In this document: positions 849 to 15,849 of the stretch, in pieces
Layout: each line of letters starts with the position of its first letter
How positions within the stretch are numbered: position 1 is the stretch's first letter
NCBI GenBank assembly: GCA_016213065.1
Contig: JACRBV010000012.1
Coordinates: forward strand, 1 to 38,880
DNA: 38,880 nt
Reading direction: 5' to 3'
Source of the DNA: Deltaproteobacteria bacterium
Lineage (GTDB): Bacteria; UBA10199; SPLOWO2-01-44-7
Position numbers and translations under genes: made by a program
Notes under the pieces: model-generated
Database searches by the model: none
The model's input: only the letters and a program-made list of their open reading frames with translations
What the model was told of the DNA's origin: nothing

Positions 849-1093
849 GCGGCCCTCCGCAAGTGTTTGTAAGCATTAAAAATACCAACGAGGGCGATGA
901 TGCTCCAGGCGATTTCGACAAACCCTACAGACAACACGCCTTTGCTGAAAGCGTTGATCATAACACCGCAGGCTCCCAAAATATTGATAAGATGATACAG
1001 ACATCGCGTATCATCCAAATAACGATGCGACGCGAGAAAAAAAACGGCCAGAAGCAAAACCATCCCCAGCCATCCAACAATTTCAATCCACAT
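845..1093 (-). CDS. Small membrane protein, CBU_0592-like (first paralogue)
   Basis: An 82-residue protein with an N-terminal helix at about residues 4-22, a polar turn containing Y-H-L-I-N-I-L-G, and further hydrophobic segments to about residue 75. It shares layout and key positions (I/V-G-W-L/F-G at the start, N-x-L-G in the middle, I-A-W-S-I-I-A at the end) with the gene directly downstream. The two look like a tandem duplication whose products may form a heteromer. Its start lies 11 bp inside the end of the YacG-type gene, so all three genes form one overlapping transcript. Function unknown. Confidence 0.7.
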
Positions 1094-1340
1094 TATTTTT
1101 CCCTTCGTCGTCGTCTTCGTCCTCTTTGGAAACGGGGTTGTCAGGGGGAGACTCTCCCCCTGACTTCAGCGAGTACGGGCTTTGCCCGTGCGAGCGAATA
1201 GATTCGCCCGGGATGGAGTATTTTCCACTCGCCCACTGCCCTAAGTCAATCAACTTGCAACGTTCCGAGCAGAAGGGCCAATAAGGATTATCCTTCTTCA
1301 GAGTTTTCTTTTTGCAGTATGGACAGGATTTAGACTGCAT
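1083..1340 (-). CDS. yacG: YacG-family zinc-binding protein (DNA gyrase inhibitor family)
   Basis: The N-terminal half carries the family signature: C-P-Y-C, then about 15 residues later F-C-S-E-R-C, followed by [16 protein letters not shown]. Family members bind one zinc through the four cysteines; the E. coli protein binds GyrB and inhibits gyrase. The family is usually about 60-70 residues. Here roughly 35 extra residues follow the Y-x-I-P motif, and their codons fall on three adjacent small hairpins (1140-1207) before an acidic D/E-rich end. The extension thus looks like a palindromic repeat that inserted into the 3' end and was read through. The ATG at 1340 is preferred because it puts the first Cys at the usual distance; a TTG at 1358 would add six residues. 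No clear ribosome binding site is seen. Inhibition of gyrase here is inference. Confidence 0.85.
1140..1207. repeat. Three consecutive small hairpins inside the yacG 3' end
   Basis: Three perfect stem-loops follow one another: GTCAGGGGGAG/CTCCCCCTGAC with loop ACT (1140-1164), ACGGGC/GCCCGT with loop TTT (1175-1189), and GCGAAT/ATTCGC (1194-1207). Short perfect stems with three-base loops also occur in the tRNA-Gly region (3872-3996) and at the borders of the toxin-antitoxin island. Confidence 0.8.
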
Positions 1341-1406
1341 GTTTTTCTGATATTTCAAGCCATGGCAAAACTCAACCGCTTTTTATGACAAACGACAATG
1401 TTTCCT

Positions 1407-1435
1407 TTGACAAATAGGTCCAGATGTGGTCACAT
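1407..1435 (+). promoter_or_regulatory. Possible promoter -35 and operator of the Phd/VapC pair
   Basis: A TTGACA at 1407-1412 is followed by the 12-bp palindrome ATGTGGTCACAT at 1424-1435, which ends six bases before the preferred antitoxin start at 1442. Phd-type antitoxins commonly bind palindromes at their own promoters. No convincing -10 box was found, so the promoter part is weak. Confidence 0.4.
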
Positions 1436-1441
1436 GTAGTC

Positions 1442-1711
1442 ATGACGCAGGTAAAAATTGCACAATTTAAAAGTCAGTTGAGCGGATTTCTCAAACGGGT
1501 TCGCGCGGGAGAAACACTCATCGTGACAGACCGCGAAACACCCATTGCGCAAGTCCTGCCTTACCAAACTCCTTCGGACCGCCTCACGATTTTGGCGGCA
1601 AAACAGACTCCAAAAATGCTTAAAAAAATTAAAGTTCCAAAGGCACGCAAAGGCACCGATTCCTTAAAAGTCCTTCTGGAAGAGCGCTCCGACGATCTGG
1701 AGCAGAAATGA
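1442..1711 (+). CDS. Phd/YefM-type antitoxin
   Basis: An 89-residue protein with the Phd/YefM N-terminal pattern: KIAQFKSQLSGFLKRVRAGE, then a strand LIVTDRETPIAQVLPY. This fold forms a DNA-binding dimer that represses its own operon; the variable C-terminal tail (here basic, then acidic) neutralises the toxin. The ATG at 1442 fits the usual family start; an in-frame ATG at 1424 would lie inside the putative operator palindrome. The stop overlaps the toxin start by four bases (ATGA), the typical arrangement for a type II pair. No strong Shine-Dalgarno sequence is seen. Confidence 0.85.
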   Translation: MTQVKIAQFKSQLSGFLKRVRAGETLIVTDRETPIAQVLPYQTPSDRLTILAAKQTPKMLKKIKVPKARKGTDSLKVLLEERSDDLEQK

Positions 1712-2130
1712 AGCCGTCCTTTTTGGATACCTCCATCCTTCTTCGGCATATTTTGGGAGAACCCAATGCCTATCAAAAGCTGAAGCAATTCGACAAAATT
1801 TATGCCAGCGAACTAACCCGCGTGGAAGCACTGCGCACCATTGACCGGCTTCGCATTCAAAATCGCTGGCCGCAAGAGGAAGTCGCATTGAGAATTCGTT
1901 TGTTAACGGCTTTCAGCGCTTCCGTGGAAATCATTCCTCTTCAGCCGGCCATTTTGCGGCGCGCTTCGGACCCTTTTCCGACGACGGTTGGAACCTTGGA
2001 TGCCCTTCATATTGCGACGGCGCTTCTAATACAAATCCAGTTGAATAAATCTCTCTTGTTTCTGACGCACGACACAAGACAAGGTCTTGCGGCAGTTGCC
2101 TCCGGCATGGATGCGGAAGGATTCAACTGA
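1708..2130 (+). CDS. PIN-domain ribonuclease toxin (VapC-like)
   Basis: A 140-residue single PIN domain. The expected acidic residues are present: D7 in FLDTSIL, E40 in SELTRVEALR, D98 in GTLDALHIAT and D122 in FLTHDTR. These coordinate the metal ions used to cleave RNA; several characterised VapC toxins cut tRNA or rRNA loops. Translation is coupled to the antitoxin by an ATGA overlap. The gene ends only 30 bp before a tRNA-Gly 5' fragment (2160-2182). The target is not predictable from sequence. Classified with high confidence as the toxin of a type II pair. Confidence 0.9.
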   Translation: MKPSFLDTSILLRHILGEPNAYQKLKQFDKIYASELTRVEALRTIDRLRIQNRWPQEEVALRIRLLTAFSASVEIIPLQPAILRRASDPFPTTVGTLDALHIATALLIQIQLNKSLLFLTHDTRQGLAAVASGMDAEGFN

Positions 2131-2159
2131 TTTGCCATGTTGACGCTCCTACCTCCAAT

Positions 2160-2182
2160 GCGGGTGCGATTCAATGGCAGAA
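2160..2182 (+). pseudogene. tRNA-Gly 5' fragment A (degenerate)
   Basis: Twenty-three bases match the first 23 of the intact tRNA-Gly gene at 4010 with two mismatches (positions 8 and 10). The match starts exactly at tRNA nucleotide 1 and stops before the anticodon arm. No 3' half is nearby. It lies between the VapC-like and Fic genes. Confidence 0.65.
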
Positions 2183-2246
2183 AGTCGTCATCAAATTCTA
2201 CAAAATACTTGCCATAATTTCTATTAAAAGTTAGCATTAACTTCTA

Positions 2247-3779
2247 GTGAAAAAAGAGGCTCCAAACAAATTATTGGCTTTGTCTTTGGCAAAAGCCAAA
2301 ACTGCAAGCAGGGAAGGCGTTCTCAAAGCCACGGACATTGATCGGGACACCAAGGCCCGGTTGATTGCGGCAAAGTGTTTAATGCCAATCATAAGAGGAT
2401 GGTATTTACTCGCAACACCGGGAACCGGCGGTGGCAGTACTGTATGGTTTGGGGGATTCTGGTCCTTTGTAAGATATTATCTTGAAGACCGGTTTGGGAA
2501 AAAAGGATATTGTCTCTCTGCGGAATCCTCCATTGATCTTCATTCCGGTGAAAGCTCCATCGCAAACCAAATAACGGTTCTTACAAAAAAGAACAGTAAT
2601 CAGATTGTCGCTTTACCCCACAACACATCCCTGTTTCTTTACAAAGAGGCCAAAAAATTTCCATTGCAAATGGAGACTCTAAGAAACATCAATGTCATGC
2701 CACCTGCATTGGCTTTATGCAGACTGTCTCCCGCCTACTTCTCAAACAAACCGCTCAACGTGGAAATCACCCTTCGCCTGCTTCCTTCTGTTTCCGACAT
2801 TTCACGCATACTGCTGGAAGGGCAAATGATCTCTGCCGCCAACCGATTGGTGGGAGCTTATTTCACCCTCGGAGAGAACAACAAGGCAAATCAAATTGCA
2901 GAAGACATGGCCGCAATGGGCCATATTCTTGCGACAACCAATCCGTTCTTAACTTACGAACCAATCATCGGAAAAAGCCCCGGACTTAAATCGCCTTATA
3001 CCGGACGCATCACAGCTCTTTGGGAAAAAATGCGGGACTCCGTGTTGAAAGTGTTTCCTGATGAACCGGGTTACCATCAGAAACCAGATACAATTTTTAA
3101 ATATATTCACGGACTTTATTCACAAGATGCTTATCATTCCCTTTCTATCGAAGGTTATCAAATCACTGAAACCCTGATTGACAAAATCGCAAAGGGTGAT
3201 TGGGACCCGGACAACAATGAAGACGATAAAAACCACAGGAATGCTTTGGCGGCCTTTGGCTATCATCAGGCCTTTGAAGCAGTAACAAAAAACATCCGGA
3301 CATTGCTCGCAAAGAAAAAAAATGCCGGAGAAATTTTCGAGGAGAATTTACAAACATGGTACAGAGAACTTTTTTCGCCTTTGATACAAGCCAATCTGCT
3401 GAAAACTTCTGATCTTGCGGGGTACAGAAATAATCAGGTGTATATTCGAAACTCACGACACGTTCCTCCACCGGCCAGTGCCGTTGTTGATTGTATGGAA
3501 ACTTTGTTCGTTCTTCTAAAAAAAGAAAAGAAGGCTTCGGTACGCGCCGTATTGGGACATTTTATTTTCGTTTACATTCATCCATACATGGATGGCAATG
3601 GTCGCATCGGCAGATTCCTCATGAACCTGATGTTAGTCTCGGGAGGATACCCTTGGACAATCATTCGAATGGAGCATCGAAAAGTGTATATGGATGCATT
3701 GGAACAGGCTTCCGTTCACAAAAACATCACTCCTTTTGCAAAATTTATCCTTTCAGAAATGAAGTCAAAGAACATTTAA
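2247..3779 (+). CDS. Fic-domain protein with AbiEi-like N-terminal region
   Basis: A 510-residue protein starting at GTG. The C-terminal Fic domain has the complete active motif HPYMDGNGRIGR at residues 445-456; this fold usually transfers AMP to a Ser, Thr or Tyr of a target protein. An inhibitory-helix motif S-x-x-x-E-G (S298, E302, G303) precedes the domain, as in class II Fic proteins that inhibit themselves intramolecularly. Residues about 15-55 read like the winged-helix start of AbiEi antitoxins: ASREGVLKATDI, then a basic patch and IIRGWYLL. Residues 55-230 continue in the manner of an AbiEi effector region. This combination suggests a toxin fused to a DNA-binding or antitoxin-like module. 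It sits between two tRNA-Gly fragments, with no integrase nearby. Fic call is secure; AbiEi similarity is by eye. Confidence 0.88.
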   Translation: MKKEAPNKLLALSLAKAKTASREGVLKATDIDRDTKARLIAAKCLMPIIRGWYLLATPGTGGGSTVWFGGFWSFVRYYLEDRFGKKGYCLSAESSIDLHSGESSIANQITVLTKKNSNQIVALPHNTSLFLYKEAKKFPLQMETLRNINVMPPALALCRLSPAYFSNKPLNVEITLRLLPSVSDISRILLEGQMISAANRLVGAYFTLGENNKANQIAEDMAAMGHILATTNPFLTYEPIIGKSPGLKSPYTGRITALWEKMRDSVLKVFPDEPGYHQKPDTIFKYIHGLYSQDAYHSLSIEGYQITETLIDKIAKGDWDPDNNEDDKNHRNALAAFGYHQAFEAVTKNIRTLLAKKKNAGEIFEENLQTWYRELFSPLIQANLLKTSDLAGYRNNQVYIRNSRHVPPPASAVVDCMETLFVLLKKEKKASVRAVLGHFIFVYIHPYMDGNGRIGRFLMNLMLVSGGYPWTIIRMEHRKVYMDALEQASVHKNITPFAKFILSEMKSKNI

Positions 3780-3828
3780 TTCAGAGTGGACATGGGGGAT
3801 GTTGGTATTATAGAGACACACATCATTG

Positions 3829-3860
3829 GCGGGTGTGGTTCAATGGCAGAATGCGAGCTT
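3829..3860 (+). pseudogene. tRNA-Gly 5' half, fragment B (identical copy)
   Basis: Thirty-two bases identical to nucleotides 1-32 of the intact tRNA-Gly(CCC) gene at 4010-4041. Identity begins exactly at the tRNA 5' end and stops just before the first anticodon base; upstream and downstream flanks are unrelated. It cannot fold into a tRNA because the anticodon 3' arm and T arm are missing. Confidence 0.85.
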
Positions 3861-3871
3861 GGCTATCTATA

Positions 3872-3996
3872 GGGGCTCGCGTCGCCCCCTCCAATGGCAA
3901 AGCCATTGGAGCCTCCCCCTCTCGCCGCTAACGCGGCTAGAAAAAGAAAAACAAGGGAATTGCCCTTGACGTCCCTTCACCAGCTTCGCGGTGAAG
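3872..3996. repeat. Cluster of five small hairpins before tRNA-Gly
   Basis: Five successive stem-loops occupy this gene-free interval: GGGGC/GCCCC (3872-3888), CTCCAATGGC/GCCATTGGAG with loop AAA (3889-3911), GCCGC/GCGGC (3924-3937), CAAGGG/CCCTTG (3952-3968) and CTTCACC/GGTGAAG (3975-3996). They differ in sequence but share geometry with the hairpins in yacG and at the toxin-antitoxin island borders. Otherwise 3780-4009 holds only tRNA fragment B. Confidence 0.75.
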
Positions 3997-4009
3997 AGAA
4001 ATACAACTT

Positions 4010-4083
4010 GCGGGTGTGGTTCAATGGCAGAATGCGAGCTTCCCAAGCTTGAGACGAGGGTTCGATTCCCTTCACCCGCTCCA
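4010..4083 (+). tRNA. tRNA-Gly (anticodon CCC)
   Basis: A full cloverleaf: acceptor GCGGGTG pairing with CACCCGC, D-arm with GGTTCAATGGCAGAA, anticodon stem CGAGC/GCTTG around loop TTCCCAA (anticodon CCC at 4042-4044), T-arm GAGGGTTCGATTCCCTT, and an encoded CCA end at 4081-4083. The sequence closely resembles the E. coli glyU type. Two truncated copies of its 5' half lie upstream at 2160 and 3829. Confidence 0.95.
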
Positions 4084-4124
4084 ATAATAATGGAAGTTTA
4101 TTTATGAAACAAAGGAGGAAGAAA

Positions 4125-5138
4125 ATGGCTACTGCAATGACGGCGGGAAAATTGAAGCACATGGAAAAGGTTGCGAATCAAAAAGGGGTTATTGCCGCGG
4201 CGGCAATGGATCAACGCGGTTCGCTTAAGAAATCGATTGCCAAGGCCAAGGGAGTTGATCCCAAAGAAATTAGTTGGGAGCAGATGGCTGAATTCAAAAC
4301 GGCTGTCACCAAAATTCTGACTCCTCATGCCAGCGCCATTTTGCTCGATCCTGAATATGGAATTGAAGCGGCGAAACAACGCTCCAAAAACGCGGGGCTG
4401 TTGCTGGCTTATGAATCTTCCGGTTACGATAACACCGGCCCGGGACGTCTTCCCATTTTAATGCCGACATGGACGGTCTCTCAATTAAAAGAGGCCGGAG
4501 CCAACGCCATTAAAATTCTTTTCTATTACAATCCGTTTGAACAAAAAGAAATTAACGAAACCAAAAAAGCGTGGGTGGAAAGAATCGGCGTGGAATGTGC
4601 CTATCAGGATATCCCCTATTTTCTTGAGTTTGTCGGCTACGACACAAAAGGCGGCGAGGGGAAAGACCTTGCATTTGCCAAACAAAAACCGGAAATTGTG
4701 AAAAAGAGCATGGAGGAGTTTTCCAAAGACCGCTACCATGTCGATGTGCTGAAAGTGGAAGTACCGGTTAATCTGCAATTCACCCAAGGAACCAAATCTT
4801 TCAAAAATGAAGGGGTTGCCTACACCAAAAAAGAAGCGATGGAACACTATAAAGCTTCTGCCGCCGTCACAAAAAAACCCTTTATTTATTTAAGCGCGGG
4901 TGTCAGTGACGAGGAATTCAGGGAAAGCCTCACGCTTGCCTGTGAATCAGGCATAAAATTCAACGGCGTCCTTTGCGGCAGGGCCACATGGAAAGATGGA
5001 ATTCCCGTTTATGCCAAATCAGGAATCAAGGCGCTGGAGAGCTGGCTCTCCGACCGCGGCGTACAAAACATTCAGGCTCTAAACGCCATCCTTGATAAGG
5101 GAGCCAGCTCCGTTTGGGATAAAATCAAGCGCTCTTAG
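4125..5138 (+). CDS. Class I aldolase, tagatose-1,6-bisphosphate (LacD) type
   Basis: A 337-residue TIM-barrel aldolase of the LacD family, which cleaves tagatose- or fructose-1,6-bisphosphate to dihydroxyacetone phosphate and glyceraldehyde-3-phosphate through a Schiff-base lysine. Visible signatures are AAAMDQRGSLKK near residue 25, LLDPEYGIEA near 73, ESSGYD near 97, and VDVLKVEVPVNL with the expected Schiff-base Lys at about 210. The ATG at 4125 is chosen because AAAGGAGG lies seven bases upstream (about 4111-4117); an earlier in-frame ATG at 4104 would place that site inside the gene. With no lactose or galactitol genes nearby, a general glycolytic or gluconeogenic fructose-bisphosphate role is plausible. 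The 3' end overlaps the convergent membrane-protein gene by 14 bp. Confidence 0.88.
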   Translation: MATAMTAGKLKHMEKVANQKGVIAAAAMDQRGSLKKSIAKAKGVDPKEISWEQMAEFKTAVTKILTPHASAILLDPEYGIEAAKQRSKNAGLLLAYESSGYDNTGPGRLPILMPTWTVSQLKEAGANAIKILFYYNPFEQKEINETKKAWVERIGVECAYQDIPYFLEFVGYDTKGGEGKDLAFAKQKPEIVKKSMEEFSKDRYHVDVLKVEVPVNLQFTQGTKSFKNEGVAYTKKEAMEHYKASAAVTKKPFIYLSAGVSDEEFRESLTLACESGIKFNGVLCGRATWKDGIPVYAKSGIKALESWLSDRGVQNIQALNAILDKGASSVWDKIKRS

Positions 5139-8960: not shown

Positions 8961-11900
8961 TTATTGCGTTTCTGTTTCTTCGTCTTTCTCTGCAAGACGG
9001 GCCACTGAGGTTACCTTTTCTCCTTCTTCAACATTGATCAGGCGCACTCCCTGCGTAGCTCTTCCCTGTAAAGAAATGCCGGATACTGCGGTTCGTATTA
9101 TTTTTCCTTTATCGGACACCAACATGATGTCTTCGCCGTCGGTGACCTGCATCACGCCGATGACCACACCATTTTTTTCGGTCACTTTGCAAGTGAAAAT
9201 ACCGCTCCCGCCACGTGACTGTATGCGATATTCTTTGAGCTCGGTTCTTTTTCCGTAACCTTTTTCCGTCACTGTCAGGAGAACCGCGTTGTTGCCGTTG
9301 ACAACCTCCATGCTGACAACCTCATCCCCTTTTTCAAGCTGAATGCCGCGCACCCCGCCGGCTTGACGTCCCATGTTGCGAACGTCTTCCTCATGGAAGC
9401 GGATCGCTTTCCCGCGACGCGTCGACAAAACAATTTCCTGTTTTCCATTGGTCAGTTTGGCGGCCACCATTTCATCACCTTGATCCAAACCAATGGCAAT
9501 AATGCCGCTGGCTCTGGGATGACTAAACGCCGTCAATTCCGTTTTTTTGATCGTCCCCTGACGCGTCACCATTATAACCGAATGCCCTTCCATAAATTCC
9601 TTCACAGGCATGATGGCGGCGATTTTTTCTTCGGAGGAAATTTGAACAAGATTGCTGATGACTTTTCCTTTTGTCACGCGCCCCGCTTGCGGAATTTCAT
9701 GGACTTTGAGCCAGAAAAGTCGTCCACGCGTGGTGAAAACCAGCAAATAACTTTTTGTTGAGGCGATAAACAAATCTTCCACAAAGTCTTCATCGCGGGT
9801 AGCCATCCCCGTTTTTCCGCGTCCGCCGCGCCTTTGCGCACGATAAATACTGACGGCGTTGCGTTTGATGTAACCGCCATGGCTGATGGTAACCACCATC
9901 TCTTCTTCCTGAATCAAATCTTCCTCGTTAATTTCTTCGGCGGCGCCCTGAATTTCTGTGCGGCGTTCATCACCATATTTGTCGCGAATTTCTTTGATCT
10001 CGTCTGAAATAATTTTCATGATGCGGCGTTCATCGGCCAAAATCGCTTTGCATTCTTTGATGAACTTCAACAATTCTTCCAGTTCTTCCAAAATTTTGGT
10101 TCTTTCAAGTCCGGTCAGGCGTTGCAGTCGCATATCCAAAATGGCCTGAGCCTGAATTTCGCTTAATTTAAACTTCAAACGCAGAGCTTCTTTGGCGGCC
10201 TGTGGTTCTTTCGATTTTTTGATAAGGGCAATCACTTCATCAATGTGATCCAGCGCAATTTTCAACCCTTCCAAAACATGGGCACGCGCCTCCGCCTGTT
10301 TGAGATCGTAAACGGTTCTGCGGGTGACCACTTCTCTGCGATGATCGATAAAAAATTGAAGCGCCTCTTTAAGATTCAACACTTTGGGTTGTTGGTGGAC
10401 AATGGCCAGCAAAATCACGCCGTATGATTCTTCCATCAGAGTGTGTTTGTAGAGGTGATTCAAAACAATACCGGCAACCGCTCCGCGTTTGAGTTCCACC
10501 ACAACGCGCATACCTTCTCTGTCCGACTCATCGCGAATATCGGAAACCCCTTCCAGTTTTCCTTCCTGAACAAGGTATGCAATCTGCTCGATGAGTCGCG
10601 ATTTATTCACCTGATACGGAATTTCAGTGACGATAATCGCTTCACGATCCCCTTTCGCAATGGGTTCAATGAGGGCTCTGGCCCGCATGACAATTTTTCC
10701 GCGGCCCGTGGCATAGGCATTTTTGATTCCCTCTCTGCCGCAGATAAAAGCACCCGTCGGGAAATCGGGACCCGGCACATGTTTCATCAATTCTGGAATT
10801 GTGAGGGAAGGTTTATCAATCAACGAAATCAACGCATTCGAAAGTTCTTTTAAATTATGAGGCGGAATTTTGGTAGCCATCCCAACCGCAATACCATCGG
10901 AACCGTTGAGCAAAAGATTCGGAATTTTAGAGGGAAGCACCACGGGTTCCATAGTGGAGCCGTCAAAATTGGGAATAAAGTCGACCGTTTCCTTGTCAAT
11001 TTCCTCCAGCATCTCCTCCGCAATTTTTGTGAGACGCGCTTCCGTGTAACGGTAAGCGGCGGCAGAGTCGCCGTCTATGGAATTATGGACAAAAACACCG
11101 GCGGCCAAAGAAAAATTGTGGGTTCCATCAACAGTAAGATCATAAACGTCAGCCCTCCCAGCGGATTCCACCGAAACAACTTTGTGGTTGAGTCTTCCAT
11201 GATGCGACTGAGTAGCCAATTCCAGTGCTCTGCGGTTATTCGCAAAATAACGTTCAAAACCTTGTTCAAACCGAAGGATTCCCTTAACCTTGGTTGATTT
11301 TCGGATCTCTTCGTAATTTTTTTCTGTCAGTTCACCAAGCTGAAGCATCGCACGTTGGCAAATTGTTAAAAATCGGGATTGAGTCGTTTTTTGACCGTTA
11401 CTGGAAAGATGTTTGGCGTGTTGTTCCCGATATTTTGGATTTTGCCACTGTTGTTTACTAACTTGGGAACAAAATTCCCGATAGGATGGATCACTCCACC
11501 ATTTTTTGGATAAATCGCCAAAAGCTTTCCGTGCAACGGGGTCTTGCACTTTCTTGCTGGTAATCTGGGATATTTTTTCGCGATGAGCCGGGTCCGACCA
11601 AATTTTTGCGGAGATTTCCTTCATATACTCTCTCTGCAAGGCAACGTAGGCAGGGTCTTTCCACATTTTATTAAGCCATTCTTTTTGGGCTTTTTTAATG
11701 GATTCCTTCTGCTCTTTGGAACCGTAAAGCAGAACATTTTTCTTTAATCCGGCTTCGAGAATGCGTTGACGAAATTGAGAATCGTTCCAAAGCTTTCTTT
11801 TGGCTTCCATCTGTTTCTTTTGGAATGTTTTGTCTTGCCAACGGCGTTTATTTTCTTCCCCAATCGCGGCAATTGTTTTCTTACGAAATGCACTGCCTTT

Positions 11901-12836
11901 CCAAAGATTGGAAAGAACACTTTTCATTTTCTTTTGAAACTCTGGATTAGACCAAAGTACTTTCAAATATTCATGATGGAGACGACGATGTTCGCCCCAG
12001 CCCATGCGAATAATGTTTCTTGGGTCATTGTTTAATTTATTGAAATCTTTGTGGTGACGTACACGGCCGGCACTTTTGGGGTAGACACTTCTGTTTAAGT
12101 TATAAGCATCTGCCAGATGATGGGCAAAAACCCAGGAATCGGTAGCGGGATTATAAATCTCTTCATATTTTTTTAAATTCACATCCTTCCCATCATAAAA
12201 TCGGTTGTAAAGAGGCATTAAGGAATCATCCGTTTTTAAATTTTGAGCTTCGCGATAGGTCCCATTTCGCAACATAAAACGATGGTCCGGTGTACACCGT
12301 ATTTTTTCACCGTTGTCCAAAGTCACTTCTACAATGGGAGTATTTTGTTTGGTCAGGCGGGGCGCTTGAATGGGAGCCATCGCCACATTTCCATCTTGTG
12401 TAACAGTATAAGTGAAGTGGATTTTATCATTGGCGTAATCAGCGACAAGCTCCTCAAAAGATTTAGTTTCTCCATTGGCCATGCGGATTCTGGTGTCTCC
12501 CGTAAAACAACCAAAGTTTCCTTGCCCGTCGATCATGGGATAGCGCATGTTCCAGCTTTGGGCCATGCGGACCAATGTGTCATAAACGGCGGCGTCTCCG
12601 TGGGGGTGATATTTCTTAAGTACCTCTCCCACCACACCGGCGCAGTTTGAATAGCGTTTATTGGAGAGAAGTCCCTCGCGAAACATCGCGTAAAGAATGC
12701 GGCGATGAGCGGGCTTGAGACCATCGCGAATGTCGGGAAGCGCGCGACCGATGATCACGCTCATCGCGTAATCAAGATAGGAAGCTTTCATCTCCTCTTC
12801 GATATTGATTGGAACGAGTTCTGCGGACTTTGCCAT
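8961..12836 (-). CDS. gyrA: DNA gyrase subunit A precursor containing an intein
   Basis: A 1291-residue reading frame. Removing the intein (residues 110-585) leaves 815 residues, a normal GyrA length. GyrA cuts and rejoins DNA in the A2B2 gyrase that introduces negative supercoils. Landmarks are SYLDYAMSVIIGRALPD at the N-terminus, the winged helix AHRRILYAM, HPHGDAAVYD, and the catalytic tyrosine in AAYRYTEARL (precursor Y597, mature about Y121). The C-terminal pinwheel carries the GyrA box as QRRGGRG, which supports gyrase over topoisomerase IV ParC. The N-terminal MAKSAELVPINIEEEM fits the family start. There is no Shine-Dalgarno sequence before the ATG; a promoter abuts the start codon (separate entry). 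The gene for GyrB is not in the window. Confidence 0.96.
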   Translation of the reverse strand: MAKSAELVPINIEEEMKASYLDYAMSVIIGRALPDIRDGLKPAHRRILYAMFREGLLSNKRYSNCAGVVGEVLKKYHPHGDAAVYDTLVRMAQSWNMRYPMIDGQGNFGCFTGDTRIRMANGETKSFEELVADYANDKIHFTYTVTQDGNVAMAPIQAPRLTKQNTPIVEVTLDNGEKIRCTPDHRFMLRNGTYREAQNLKTDDSLMPLYNRFYDGKDVNLKKYEEIYNPATDSWVFAHHLADAYNLNRSVYPKSAGRVRHHKDFNKLNNDPRNIIRMGWGEHRRLHHEYLKVLWSNPEFQKKMKSVLSNLWKGSAFRKKTIAAIGEENKRRWQDKTFQKKQMEAKRKLWNDSQFRQRILEAGLKKNVLLYGSKEQKESIKKAQKEWLNKMWKDPAYVALQREYMKEISAKIWSDPAHREKISQITSKKVQDPVARKAFGDLSKKWWSDPSYREFCSQVSKQQWQNPKYREQHAKHLSSNGQKTTQSRFLTICQRAMLQLGELTEKNYEEIRKSTKVKGILRFEQGFERYFANNRRALELATQSHHGRLNHKVVSVESAGRADVYDLTVDGTHNFSLAAGVFVHNSIDGDSAAAYRYTEARLTKIAEEMLEEIDKETVDFIPNFDGSTMEPVVLPSKIPNLLLNGSDGIAVGMATKIPPHNLKELSNALISLIDKPSLTIPELMKHVPGPDFPTGAFICGREGIKNAYATGRGKIVMRARALIEPIAKGDREAIIVTEIPYQVNKSRLIEQIAYLVQEGKLEGVSDIRDESDREGMRVVVELKRGAVAGIVLNHLYKHTLMEESYGVILLAIVHQQPKVLNLKEALQFFIDHRREVVTRRTVYDLKQAEARAHVLEGLKIALDHIDEVIALIKKSKEPQAAKEALRLKFKLSEIQAQAILDMRLQRLTGLERTKILEELEELLKFIKECKAILADERRIMKIISDEIKEIRDKYGDERRTEIQGAAEEINEEDLIQEEEMVVTISHGGYIKRNAVSIYRAQRRGGRGKTGMATRDEDFVEDLFIASTKSYLLVFTTRGRLFWLKVHEIPQAGRVTKGKVISNLVQISSEEKIAAIMPVKEFMEGHSVIMVTRQGTIKKTELTAFSHPRASGIIAIGLDQGDEMVAAKLTNGKQEIVLSTRRGKAIRFHEEDVRNMGRQAGGVRGIQLEKGDEVVSMEVVNGNNAVLLTVTEKGYGKRTELKEYRIQSRGGSGIFTCKVTEKNGVVIGVMQVTDGEDIMLVSDKGKIIRTAVSGISLQGRATQGVRLINVEEGEKVTSVARLAEKDEETETQ
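11082..12509 (-). mobile_element. GyrA intein with HNH-type endonuclease region and tandem Trp repeats
   Basis: A 476-residue in-frame insertion with all splicing residues: first residue Cys110 (CFTGDTRIRM), block B T182-P-D-H185, block F VYDLTVDGTHNFSLAAG, block G F-V-H-N with H584 and N585, and Ser586 as the +1 nucleophile. Splicing should restore GNFG-SIDGDSAAAY. The middle holds an HNH-like motif (R-H-H-K-D-F-N-K-L-N-N-D-P, residues 260-272, then E-H-R-R-L-H-H at 282-288). Next comes an array of W-x-D/N-P/x-x-F/Y units at W295, 312, 333, 350, 392, 413, (Q431), 447 and 464. The array is probably a DNA-binding part of the homing endonuclease. All motifs look intact, so both splicing and homing could be active. 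Confidence 0.95.
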
Positions 12837-13446: not shown

Positions 13447-13490
13447 AAAAGCCTTTTGAGTTTCAAACCTCAAAAGGCTTTTTTGTTTTT
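13447..13490 (+). terminator. Rho-independent terminator T1 (first of three identical copies)
   Basis: Stem GCCTTTTGAG/CTCAAAAGGC (13451-13460 and 13469-13478) with loop TTTCAAAC, flanked by an A tract and a T tract. It terminates the HU transcript. The same 44 bases recur at 14069 and 15178. Confidence 0.92.
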
Positions 13491-13550
13491 ATATAAAACA
13501 CACTCCATTTAAAACTTGAAAACATTACAAAACTTACCTACTAAGTCCCC

Positions 13551-13829
13551 GTGCCTATCAAAACAAAAGAAATAGTTTTTTCCCAACATGCTTTGGATCA
13601 ACTGAAAGACAGAGGAACCACGCAGGAAGAAATTATTCAGACCATTTGGGAAGGGGAGATGCAAATTGCCAAAAAGGAGCGAATTTCATTCAAAAAAAAC
13701 TTTCCCTTTGAAAAAACATGGAAAAACAGGCACTATTCGCTTAAGCAGGTGATGCCAATCGTTGTCGAGGAAAAAGGTTGTTACGTCGTAATTACTGTTT
13801 ATGTTTTTTATTTTGGAGGACAACAATGA
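13551..13829 (+). CDS. DUF4258-type protein, probable toxin partner
   Basis: A 92-residue basic protein starting at GTG. The N-terminal FSQHALDQLKDRG followed by TQEEIIQTIWEG is the pattern of DUF4258 domains, which resemble RelE/BrnT-like small toxins. A central K/F-rich strand region and a C-terminal VVITVYVFYFG complete a small alpha/beta fold. It overlaps the next gene as ATGA. Genes of this kind are frequently paired with DUF2283 proteins; a toxin role is inferred from that pairing and the neighbourhood, not shown by catalytic residues. Confidence 0.7.
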   Translation: MPIKTKEIVFSQHALDQLKDRGTTQEEIIQTIWEGEMQIAKKERISFKKNFPFEKTWKNRHYSLKQVMPIVVEEKGCYVVITVYVFYFGGQQ

Positions 13830-14041
13830 AAATAAAATATGATCCCCGAGTGGATGCCGCATACATATCCTTTAAAAAAGGTCCGACACAAGTTACGACG
13901 GTCCGTTTGAACGAAGACATCGCTGTAGACTTGGGCCCACACGAAGAAATCGTTGGCATTGAAATCCTAGATGCCAGCGAACACTTAAACCTTAAAGGGA
14001 CTTCCTTTAAATTGGAGCTGGAAAATCTGAAAGTCGCTTAA
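13826..14041 (+). CDS. DUF2283 protein, probable antitoxin partner
   Basis: A 71-residue protein with the DUF2283 signature: MKIKYDPRVDAAYISFK, then D-I-A-V-D-L-G-P and VGIEILDASEHL. The ATG at 13826 is chosen because GGAGG lies at 13815-13819 and the start overlaps the preceding stop (ATGA); the longer reading from 13778 is an overlap artefact. DUF2283 proteins are short, uncharacterised and commonly encoded next to DUF4258 genes. The gene ends 27 bp before terminator T2. Confidence 0.8.
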   Translation: MKIKYDPRVDAAYISFKKGPTQVTTVRLNEDIAVDLGPHEEIVGIEILDASEHLNLKGTSFKLELENLKVA

Positions 14042-14068
14042 TCAAAAATCCGTTCAGGAAGAAATGAA

Positions 14069-14112
14069 AAAAGCCTTTTGAGTTTCAAACCTCAAAAGGC
14101 TTTTTTGTTTTT
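14069..14112 (+). terminator. Rho-independent terminator T2 (identical to T1 and T3)
   Basis: Same 44 bases as T1, including loop and T tract. The bases just upstream (AAATGAA) are also shared with T3, giving about 50 identical bases between T2 and T3. It closes the DUF4258-DUF2283 module. Confidence 0.92.
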
Positions 14113-14134
14113 TGAACACCTGCTTGCTTTTAGA

Positions 14135-14166
14135 CTCATATTGAGTATGATTGTACTCAATATGAG
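14135..14166 (+). promoter_or_regulatory. 32-bp palindromic operator over the start of the HTH-nucleotidyltransferase gene
   Basis: Perfect 13-bp arms CTCATATTGAGTA (14135-14147) and TACTCAATATGAG (14154-14166) flank TGATTG. The right arm includes the ATG at 14162-14164. It is a likely binding site for the encoded winged-helix protein and, as RNA, could hide the start codon. Confidence 0.75.
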
Positions 14167-14776
14167 CACAACGCAAACGGCACTTCATATACTTTTTGGC
14201 TCCAGAACAAGAGCGAATCTCATCACGTTGTTTGTAACTCATCCAAATGAAGCTTTTTATGTCCGCCAATTGGCCAAACGGATTTGTCAATCCACAACTC
14301 CCGTTGTTCGTGAATTGAAGAAACTCGAAAATTTGGGTCTGGTTACCAGTGAAACAAAAGCCAATGCCAAATACTATCTGTTGAACACAGCGTCGCCCAT
14401 CTACTCTGAATTGCAGTCACTTGTTCTAAAAACGACCGGCATTGGTGACATCCTTAAAAAATATCTGCAACCCTTCTCCTCTTTGTTGTTCGCATTTATC
14501 TATGGTTCCTTTGCAACCACAGAGGCAGGGCCAAAGAGCGATATTGATTTGTTTTTGATCGGTCAAATTTCCGCGAATGTACTGGCAAAAACAATCAAAG
14601 AAGCGGAAAAACAGCTCGGAAGAGAAGTGCAATATTCTTTGTTTGACAAAAAGGAATTTTTGAAAAAATCAAAAAAGGGCAATGACTTTATCGATCAAAT
14701 CATCAAGGGACCCAAAATAATGTTGATCGGAGATGAAAATGAATTTAAGCGATTTGCAAAAACAGGGATGGATTAG
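14162..14776 (+). CDS. Winged-helix plus MNT-type nucleotidyltransferase (probable antitoxin)
   Basis: A 204-residue protein. Residues about 8-75 form a winged-helix DNA-binding domain (RTRANLITLFVTH, FYVRQLAKRI, VVRELKKLENLGLV, NAKYYLLN). From about residue 105 there is a minimal nucleotidyltransferase with YGSFATTEAGPKSDIDLFLI, carrying the G-S and D-x-D metal-binding motif. In MNT-HEPN systems this enzyme modifies (AMPylates) and silences the HEPN RNase. The start at 14162 is chosen because upstream codons translate terminator T2. The gene overlaps the HEPN gene by 38 bp. The added DNA-binding domain and the operator palindrome suggest autoregulation. Confidence 0.88.
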   Translation: MSTTQTALHILFGSRTRANLITLFVTHPNEAFYVRQLAKRICQSTTPVVRELKKLENLGLVTSETKANAKYYLLNTASPIYSELQSLVLKTTGIGDILKKYLQPFSSLLFAFIYGSFATTEAGPKSDIDLFLIGQISANVLAKTIKEAEKQLGREVQYSLFDKKEFLKKSKKGNDFIDQIIKGPKIMLIGDENEFKRFAKTGMD

Positions 14777-15176
14777 GCCATTTAAGGCGGGCGCTTCACA
14801 GGCCAAAGACCGCCTGAATCTGGCCAAAAGGGATATTGCCACCGCCAGAAAACTCTTGGGCAGTGATTCCGACTGGGCCTTTAGCATCGCCTACAATGCT
14901 GTATTGCAAGCGGCCAGAGCATTGATGTTTGCCAAAGGCTGGCGGCCGGCAACGGGAGAAGGTCAGCATATGGCCGCCGTGCGATTTGCGAAAGCCGTCA
15001 TAGGCAAGGAATTGGGAGACGAAATATATCTCTTTGATAAAATGCGCTCCAAGAGACATCGAGTTATCTATGATGTTAGCGGTTCTGTCTCCAAACAGGA
15101 GGCAAAATCAGCGTTCGATTTTGCCATACACTTTGTCGAAACCGTCGAAAAATATCTTCAGAAAATGATCAAATGA
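14739..15176 (+). CDS. HEPN-domain protein (probable toxin of the MNT-HEPN pair)
   Basis: A 145-residue all-helical HEPN protein. Helices at about residues 20-42 (QAKDRLNLAKRDIATARKLL), 45-65 (AFSIAYNAVLQAARAL) and 115-140 are clear. The loop motif RSKRHRVIYD at 103-112 sits where HEPN RNases have their R-x4-6-H catalytic pair, but spacing here is R-x3-H, so catalysis is uncertain. The ATG at 14739 is chosen because GGAG lies six bases upstream; ATG 14733 touches it. The stop codon TGA is the first triplet of the sequence shared by T2 and T3. Confidence 0.85.
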   Translation: MNLSDLQKQGWIRPFKAGASQAKDRLNLAKRDIATARKLLGSDSDWAFSIAYNAVLQAARALMFAKGWRPATGEGQHMAAVRFAKAVIGKELGDEIYLFDKMRSKRHRVIYDVSGSVSKQEAKSAFDFAIHFVETVEKYLQKMIK

Positions 15177-15177
15177 A

Positions 15178-15221
15178 AAAAGCCTTTTGAGTTTCAAACC
15201 TCAAAAGGCTTTTTTGTTTTT
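15178..15221. terminator. Terminator T3 between convergent modules (identical to T1 and T2)
   Basis: Same 44 bases as T1 and T2, placed between the HEPN stop (15176) and the stop of the minus-strand nucleotidyltransferase gene (15220-15222). With A and T tracts on both sides it can terminate in both directions. Confidence 0.92.
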
Positions 15222-15849
15222 ATTTCTTCTGAAACCAGGCTTCCAGTTTTTTAGAAGCCTCGCTCTTGCTTAATTTTTTACGAAACACTTCTTCGTAAAT
15301 TTTGAGAACCCAATCGAGGGCATCCTGAATTTCTTTAGCTCCCGCCCTCTCCCTCAACCGTTGCATGTCGGCTTTTCCAAGCTCCAAAAGGAAAAGGGCG
15401 TTGAGTCCATCAATGCCGGATTTCCAAAACTTATAAGCGGCAAGGCGATCGACAATCAGATCTTCAAGGGAAATAATTTTCAGTGGAATGCTCTCAACAT
15501 CAATTTGATCGCTTTTTTCACCCGGATTCAAAGTCGCCGATGGAAATTCGATGTAAATTTTCAGGAGCTCATTTATAAAATCTTTTCCACGCCTCTTGAA
15601 ACCCAATTCTTCCATTACTTTCCAGAGTAAAGGACCTCCCATGGCAATCATGTCGATATCTTTCGTGGCATAATTGCCGTCGGTATAGAATTCAACGGCC
15701 GCACCACCCACCAAAACAGGATCTTCGCCAATTTTGCGCAGAGCTTCAGCTATCACGGCGGCAATTTTGACACCACGTCTGGCCAAATCTTTTTCCCCGG
15801 CGGCTTTGCGCAGGAGGCTTTTCAGATTATTTAAATTTTTTGAGCGCAT
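15220..15849 (-). CDS. AbiEii/DUF6036-like nucleotidyltransferase (probable toxin)
   Basis: A 209-residue protein with the nucleotidyltransferase core DPVLVGGAAVEFYTDG then TKDIDMIAMGG, giving the G-G (48-49) and D-x-D (D64, D66) metal site. A second region ISLEDLIVDRLAAYKFW is typical of this superfamily. It ends in a basic helix region K-L-S-K-S-E-A-S-K-K-L. The start at 15849 is preferred because it matches the fold and gives a 23-bp overlap with the antitoxin gene; 15921 is an in-frame upstream start. Related enzymes (AbiEii, MenT) block translation by transferring nucleotides to tRNA. Pairing with a Phd-type antitoxin instead of AbiEi is unusual in my experience. Confidence 0.8.
   Translation of the reverse strand: MRSKNLNNLKSLLRKAAGEKDLARRGVKIAAVIAEALRKIGEDPVLVGGAAVEFYTDGNYATKDIDMIAMGGPLLWKVMEELGFKRRGKDFINELLKIYIEFPSATLNPGEKSDQIDVESIPLKIISLEDLIVDRLAAYKFWKSGIDGLNALFLLELGKADMQRLRERAGAKEIQDALDWVLKIYEEVFRKKLSKSEASKKLEAWFQKK

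Follow-up and report, generated by a model that had tools for sequence, protein, structure and literature searches.

Two 5' pieces of tRNA-Gly(CCC) lie upstream of the intact gene in the window (the whole stretch of 38,880 nucleotides that we analysed), and the edge of the nearer piece at the anticodon is most likely the junction of a mobile palindromic repeat, not the mark of a cargo-bearing island or a cleavage scar. For the history of the locus as a whole, in which successive insertions would have struck one tRNA gene, with a Fic insertion followed by the palindromic element and its 32-bp target duplication, we estimate a probability of roughly 0.62. The features of the locus are the following.

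1083 to 1358, minus strand: yacG-like gene (Pfam PF03884, E 1.9e-20), marking the left edge of the inserted stretch
1424 to 1711, plus strand: Phd/YefM-type antitoxin (PF02604, E 1.5e-6, just under its cut-off)
1708 to 2130, plus strand: PIN-domain (VapC-like) toxin (PF01850, E 2.4e-14), outside the interval between fragments A and B
2130 to 2159, plus strand: probable remnant of the ancestral tRNA-Gly upstream region, ATTTGCCATGTTGACGCTCCTA, with a TTGACG -35-like hexamer at 2140-2145
2160 to 2182, plus strand: fragment A, matching nucleotides 1-23 of tRNA-Gly(CCC), probably its decayed original 5' end
2247 to 3779, plus strand: Fic-domain protein of 510 amino acids (PF02661, E 8.2e-14)
3829 to 3860, plus strand: fragment B, equal to nucleotides 1-32 of tRNA-Gly(CCC), left copy of a 32-bp direct repeat
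3863 to 3939, minus strand (coding sense): copy of a dispersed triple-hairpin palindromic element, recognised by its genome copies and covarying stem
3940 to 4009, plus strand: spacer from the element to the intact tRNA, unique in the readable genome, with TTGACG at 3966-3971 and TCCCTTCACCAGCT at 3972-3985
4010 to 4083, plus strand: intact tRNA-Gly(CCC) (ARAGORN), its first 32 nucleotides forming the right copy of the direct repeat
4104 to 5138, plus strand: DeoC/LacD-family aldolase of the class I fructose-bisphosphate aldolase type (PF01791, E 1.3e-41)

The description of the two fragments in an earlier, sequence-only reading of this DNA was accurate: fragment B is identical to the tRNA at 32 of 32 positions and stops immediately short of the anticodon, fragment A is identical at 21 of 23 with no match beyond, and both begin at tRNA nucleotide 1, on the strand of the intact gene and 5' of it. 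A search for 23-mers with up to three mismatches from nucleotides 1-23 returned the intact gene, B and A only (1.336 Mb searched, the readable 74% of a 1.798-Mb genome). Taken alone, fragment A had a BLAST E value of 0.065 over 1.34 Mb and a local score of 36, against 31 for the best of 30 shuffled windows. No further fragment was detected at any useful score in the first 7 kb of the window, and an Rfam search of 2100-4150 recovered tRNA alone, even at E 1.

Two bases after fragment B begins a triple-hairpin element of approximately 77 nucleotides, of which the readable genome contains 56 copies. The pattern of the element core matched 61 times in the whole genome, 55 times in a second genome of the class (G024) and a few times in each of a further group, 12 genomes of that class in all; a control with the reversed pattern gave no matches. 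In an alignment of 49 copies, the central hairpin is kept and three stem positions show paired, covarying changes; no terminal inverted repeat was seen when the aligned copies were inspected by eye. At least 18 copies lie in frame inside open reading frames: 18 of the 20 copies well inside such frames share one reading frame, which encodes a peptide like SEQSEREGEAPPALPVEGALPAPI. For glycerol kinase and dCTP deaminase, this peptide lies where the alignment to solved structures is interrupted. An exact match to the element core was not found in viral contigs. Among possible drivers, we rejected a reverse transcriptase, with no RVT_1 match in this genome (G000, 96% complete), and a RAYT/Y1 transposase, as Y1_Tnp occurs in most genomes of the class whatever their repeat count and no link is visible. 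No other transposase could be tied to the element.

Comparison of each copy's left flank with its own right flank revealed exact repeats of 51, 32, 24, 21 and 17 nucleotides at 5 of the 56 copies, against a maximum of 13 in a null of 3080 mismatched flank pairs. Each of these repeats stops only a few bases from the left end of the element. Two are at tRNA genes, tRNA-Gly and tRNA-Thr(TGT). The other three are at non-tRNA sites; going by the translations, we take these to be the 3' ends of an alcohol dehydrogenase-like gene (contig C2) and of an rpiB-like gene (contig C124), together with the 5' side of a third gene. At tRNA-Thr(TGT) on contig C54, nucleotides 25-74 are repeated 3' of the element, so that the element sits between the tRNA and the copied 3' part. 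Of two copies read from other genomes, one, in a member of another family (G009), has a 19-nucleotide exact repeat with almost no spacer. G010, also from another family, carries a 5' tRNA-Thr piece (79746), the element core (79813-79850) and the intact tRNA-Thr (79893), in that order. We interpret the flanking repeats as target duplications that would have been made on insertion. A classical MITE, which would have inverted repeats at its ends and a short target duplication of fixed length, was considered and set aside because no such end repeats were seen and the flanking repeats are long and variable.

Insertions into tRNA genes account for 2 of 61 copies against 0.09 expected (P = 0.004, assuming about 36 tRNA genes per genome), an excess biased by the fact that insertions sparing the tRNA are the ones that survive to be seen. 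The repeat identity stops at tRNA nucleotide 1 in the Gly case and, in the Thr case, a single base beyond the 3' end of the tRNA, and such coincidence with tRNA ends is unexpected under duplication of random length. A possible extension of the Gly repeat 5' of nucleotide 1 (12 of 17 with gaps) added too little score to count. One mechanism that would suit these ends is RNA-primed or target-primed copying, for example, in which long target copies would be bounded by mature tRNA ends and tRNA genes would be favoured and supply surviving hits; we regard this as a long shot, which, if true, would add a new route by which small repeats colonise essential RNA genes.

Comparison with relatives, which the sequence-only reading had called for as a search for empty sites, did reveal the empty order. 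In four relatives of the same family, tRNA-Gly(CCC) lies 5' of the same aldolase. In G003, yacG is directly 5' of the tRNA, giving the order yacG, tRNA-Gly(CCC), aldolase, and the 5' side of the tRNA in G005 holds no VapBC, Fic or tRNA fragment. Because these relatives without the cargo show the empty order, the window has gained about 2.7 kb between yacG and tRNA-Gly. G002 has other genes on the 5' side of tRNA-Gly(CCC), and G004 has a short insert on the other side, with a 17-nucleotide 3' tRNA tail; the locus is therefore an insertion hot spot. Furthermore, the 70 nucleotides 5' of fragment A can be aligned with the sequence that precedes tRNA-Gly in G005 (p 0.002) and in G004 (p 0.006), and no such alignment was obtained for the sequence 5' of fragment B. 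Since ancestral-like tRNA upstream sequence precedes it, fragment A probably represents the 5' end that tRNA-Gly had at first, which would have been severed earlier, when the Fic gene arrived.

Between fragments A and B, the Fic gene encodes a protein with the core motif HPYMDGNGRIGR and an SLSIEG stretch that, as read from the sequence, fits the [ST]xxxE[GN] inhibitory motif. In G010, a 67% identical Fic gene ends 107 nucleotides 5' of tRNA-Gly(CCC) in the same orientation. These two known cases suggest independent arrivals of Fic genes at the same tRNA-Gly(CCC). The contigs of two other Fic homologues in the class (65% and 48% identity) carry no tRNA, and Fic relatives at 80 genome loci include some near assorted tRNA genes, with no repetition of the tRNA-Gly(CCC) arrangement. 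Phage homologues align to no more than 41% of the protein, and plasmid homologues are 41% identical. Neither a recombinase nor an element end was found for fragment A and Fic. Both the VapC-like toxin and Fic had been named as cargo in the sequence-only reading; Fic keeps that place inside the A-B interval, whereas for VapC it finds no support, as VapBC (1424-2130) lies 5' of A. There it occupies the space between yacG and A with no bounding tRNA pieces, and what marks the toxin as VapC-like is its PIN domain.

Elsewhere in the window, from 13447 to 15225, three identical terminator-like hairpins of 46-51 nucleotides, with no other copy in the readable genome, separate two gene pairs, DUF4258/DUF2283 and nucleotidyltransferase/HEPN, in a cassette-like row of toxin-antitoxin-type modules. 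GyrA (8961-12836, minus strand) contains an intein, whose splicing domain (Pfam PF14890) is at residues 119-585. Within yacG, at its 3' end, is a different near-perfect palindrome at 1139-1165 (GTCAGGGGGAGA/TCTCCCCCTGAC), with a layout resembling hairpins 3' of tRNA-Gly in G002 and G003.

Several other tRNA genes are associated with partial copies or insertions. Copies of tRNA 3' ends, 17-25 nucleotides long and all starting from the T loop, are present at L026, L032, L043, L041 and contig C19 (7497-7610), 85-220 nucleotides 3' of intact tRNAs in four genomes and around short structured inserts; Rfam searches of the relatives' inserts with such 3' tails gave no convincing family other than tRNA. 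The 3' part of tRNA-Pro(TGG) (nucleotides 31-76, 98%) recurs on another contig (C129 133-208 and C67 6008-6053), with identity that passes the tRNA end. On contig C25 (193-417 and 542-763), the C-terminal part of an integrase adjoins tRNA-Thr(CGT), upstream of which is a decayed 5' tRNA-Thr copy. At L113 (contig C62, 10584-10835), a group I intron (Rfam RF00028, 62 bits) lies in a tRNA-like gene that ARAGORN misses, and the open reading frame just 5' of it resembles one beside tRNA-Gly(TCC) on C54.

We propose the following history for the locus. The ancestral order was yacG, promoter, tRNA-Gly(CCC) and aldolase, as relatives show. An insertion that left the Fic gene would then have split the original promoter and tRNA 5' part, now fragment A, from a tRNA with a restored 5' part. 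Later, the element of about 77 nucleotides would have entered the anticodon loop after nucleotide 32 and produced a 32-bp direct duplication, one copy of which would be fragment B and the other of which would complete the present tRNA-Gly. We infer this order of events, under which the spacer at 3940-4009 would now drive tRNA-Gly(CCC). Against this history, a visible duplication is kept at only 5 of 56 copies, and the 70 nucleotides of right-hand spacer are not accounted for. The sequence-only reading had envisaged repeated insertions that each supply a new 5' half, with the older copy decaying. Much of this stands: A carries ancestral-like upstream sequence, B is pristine, relatives are empty and a Fic gene lies by the same tRNA in G010. 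However, B is bounded by a dispersed repeat with similar duplications at non-tRNA sites and not by a cargo-bearing island.

The spacer also bears on a different reading, in which the whole tRNA-Gly was first duplicated in tandem and the element then entered the upstream copy at its anticodon loop; that copy would have lost its 3' half to decay and, through chance or gene conversion, kept an identical 5' half. The spacer sequence TCCCTTCACCAGCT matches tRNA nucleotides 58-71 at 13 of 14 positions (p 0.0008 against shuffles and 0.0002 against genomic stretches) at roughly the right distance, and tRNA-Thr(CGT) offers a precedent in its decayed, tandem-like upstream copy. This reading nevertheless requires that the 5' half stayed perfect while the 3' half next to it was almost erased; in addition, no matching other half was seen at tRNA-Thr(TGT), and a tandem gene is unnecessary for the repeats at non-tRNA sites. 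We therefore consider a prior tandem duplication a minority possibility that deserves to be kept in mind.

An integrase-type island of the rare 5' kind, attaching within the 5' half of the tRNA and restoring that half, would have had to act twice, with Fic and a small remnant as its cargo. Such islands are a known type (159 have a 5' tRNA fragment, compared with 3760 that have a 3' one; PMC4383910), Fic adjoins tRNA-Gly(CCC) in two families, and the 17-19 nucleotide 3' tails beside other tRNAs of the class resemble classical attachment sites. Yet contig C12, which holds the window, has no PF00589 match (the three in the genome are on C121, C35 and C25), the B interval is just 181 bp and contains a dispersed repeat, and a 7-bp crossover with its centre in the anticodon loop would not fit an identity that ends at nucleotide 32. 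Although an island is still viable for the step that brought Fic to A, as an explanation of the whole locus we judge it unlikely. The sequence-only reading had also raised the copying into DNA of a tRNA half released by cleavage in the anticodon loop, for which the VapC-like toxin would be one candidate. Fragment B does start at the mature 5' end and end after U33, and the Thr copy extends a single base beyond the 3' end of the tRNA. However, the end of B is a junction with a repeat element that behaves alike at non-tRNA sites, the Thr fragment lacks an added CCA, and the genome has no reverse-transcriptase domain. With the repeat found, a copied half is not needed for B, and we give it almost no weight.

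Genomic "tRNA halves" are usually read as island scars. Insertion of a small palindromic element is an alternative source of them, and at the two tRNA genes struck here the flanking repeat itself keeps an essential gene complete. How elements like the Rickettsia palindromic elements (RPE) move is, to our knowledge, still poorly understood, and the present family, in a different bacterial class, has flanking repeats that can be read base by base.

In behaviour, the element comes closest, among known systems, to RPE and the YPAL repeats of Yersinia. RPE are dispersed hairpin repeats that, like the element described here, occur between genes and in frame in genes for conserved proteins; they are also found in the RNA genes for tmRNA and M1 RNA, and their target duplication was listed as unknown in a 2007 review (PMC2229807). 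In contrast, our element resides in a different host class, encodes a different peptide, measures about 77 nucleotides rather than 105-146 bp and has repeats of 17-51 bp at some copies; we liken the two by behaviour and do not claim membership in RPE. YPAL, or RU-2, has internal rather than terminal inverted repeats, duplicates 3-26 bp of target and inserts at or near dyad symmetry (PMC2229807). The present element is likewise a palindrome of internal repeats with flanking repeats of variable length (17, 19, 21, 24, 32 and 51 nucleotides), and the anticodon arm is a dyad. Again the likeness is one of behaviour. YPAL is 168 bp long, and the duplications at our element extend to as much as 32 and 51 bp, with tRNA genes restored by them. 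Finally, the locus resembles Islander-type islands (PMC4383910) in pairing an intact tRNA with a displaced fragment, on the correct side and in the correct orientation for a 5' fragment, and differs from them in the shortness of the B interval, the lack of an integrase and the dispersed repeat that lies between the two copies.
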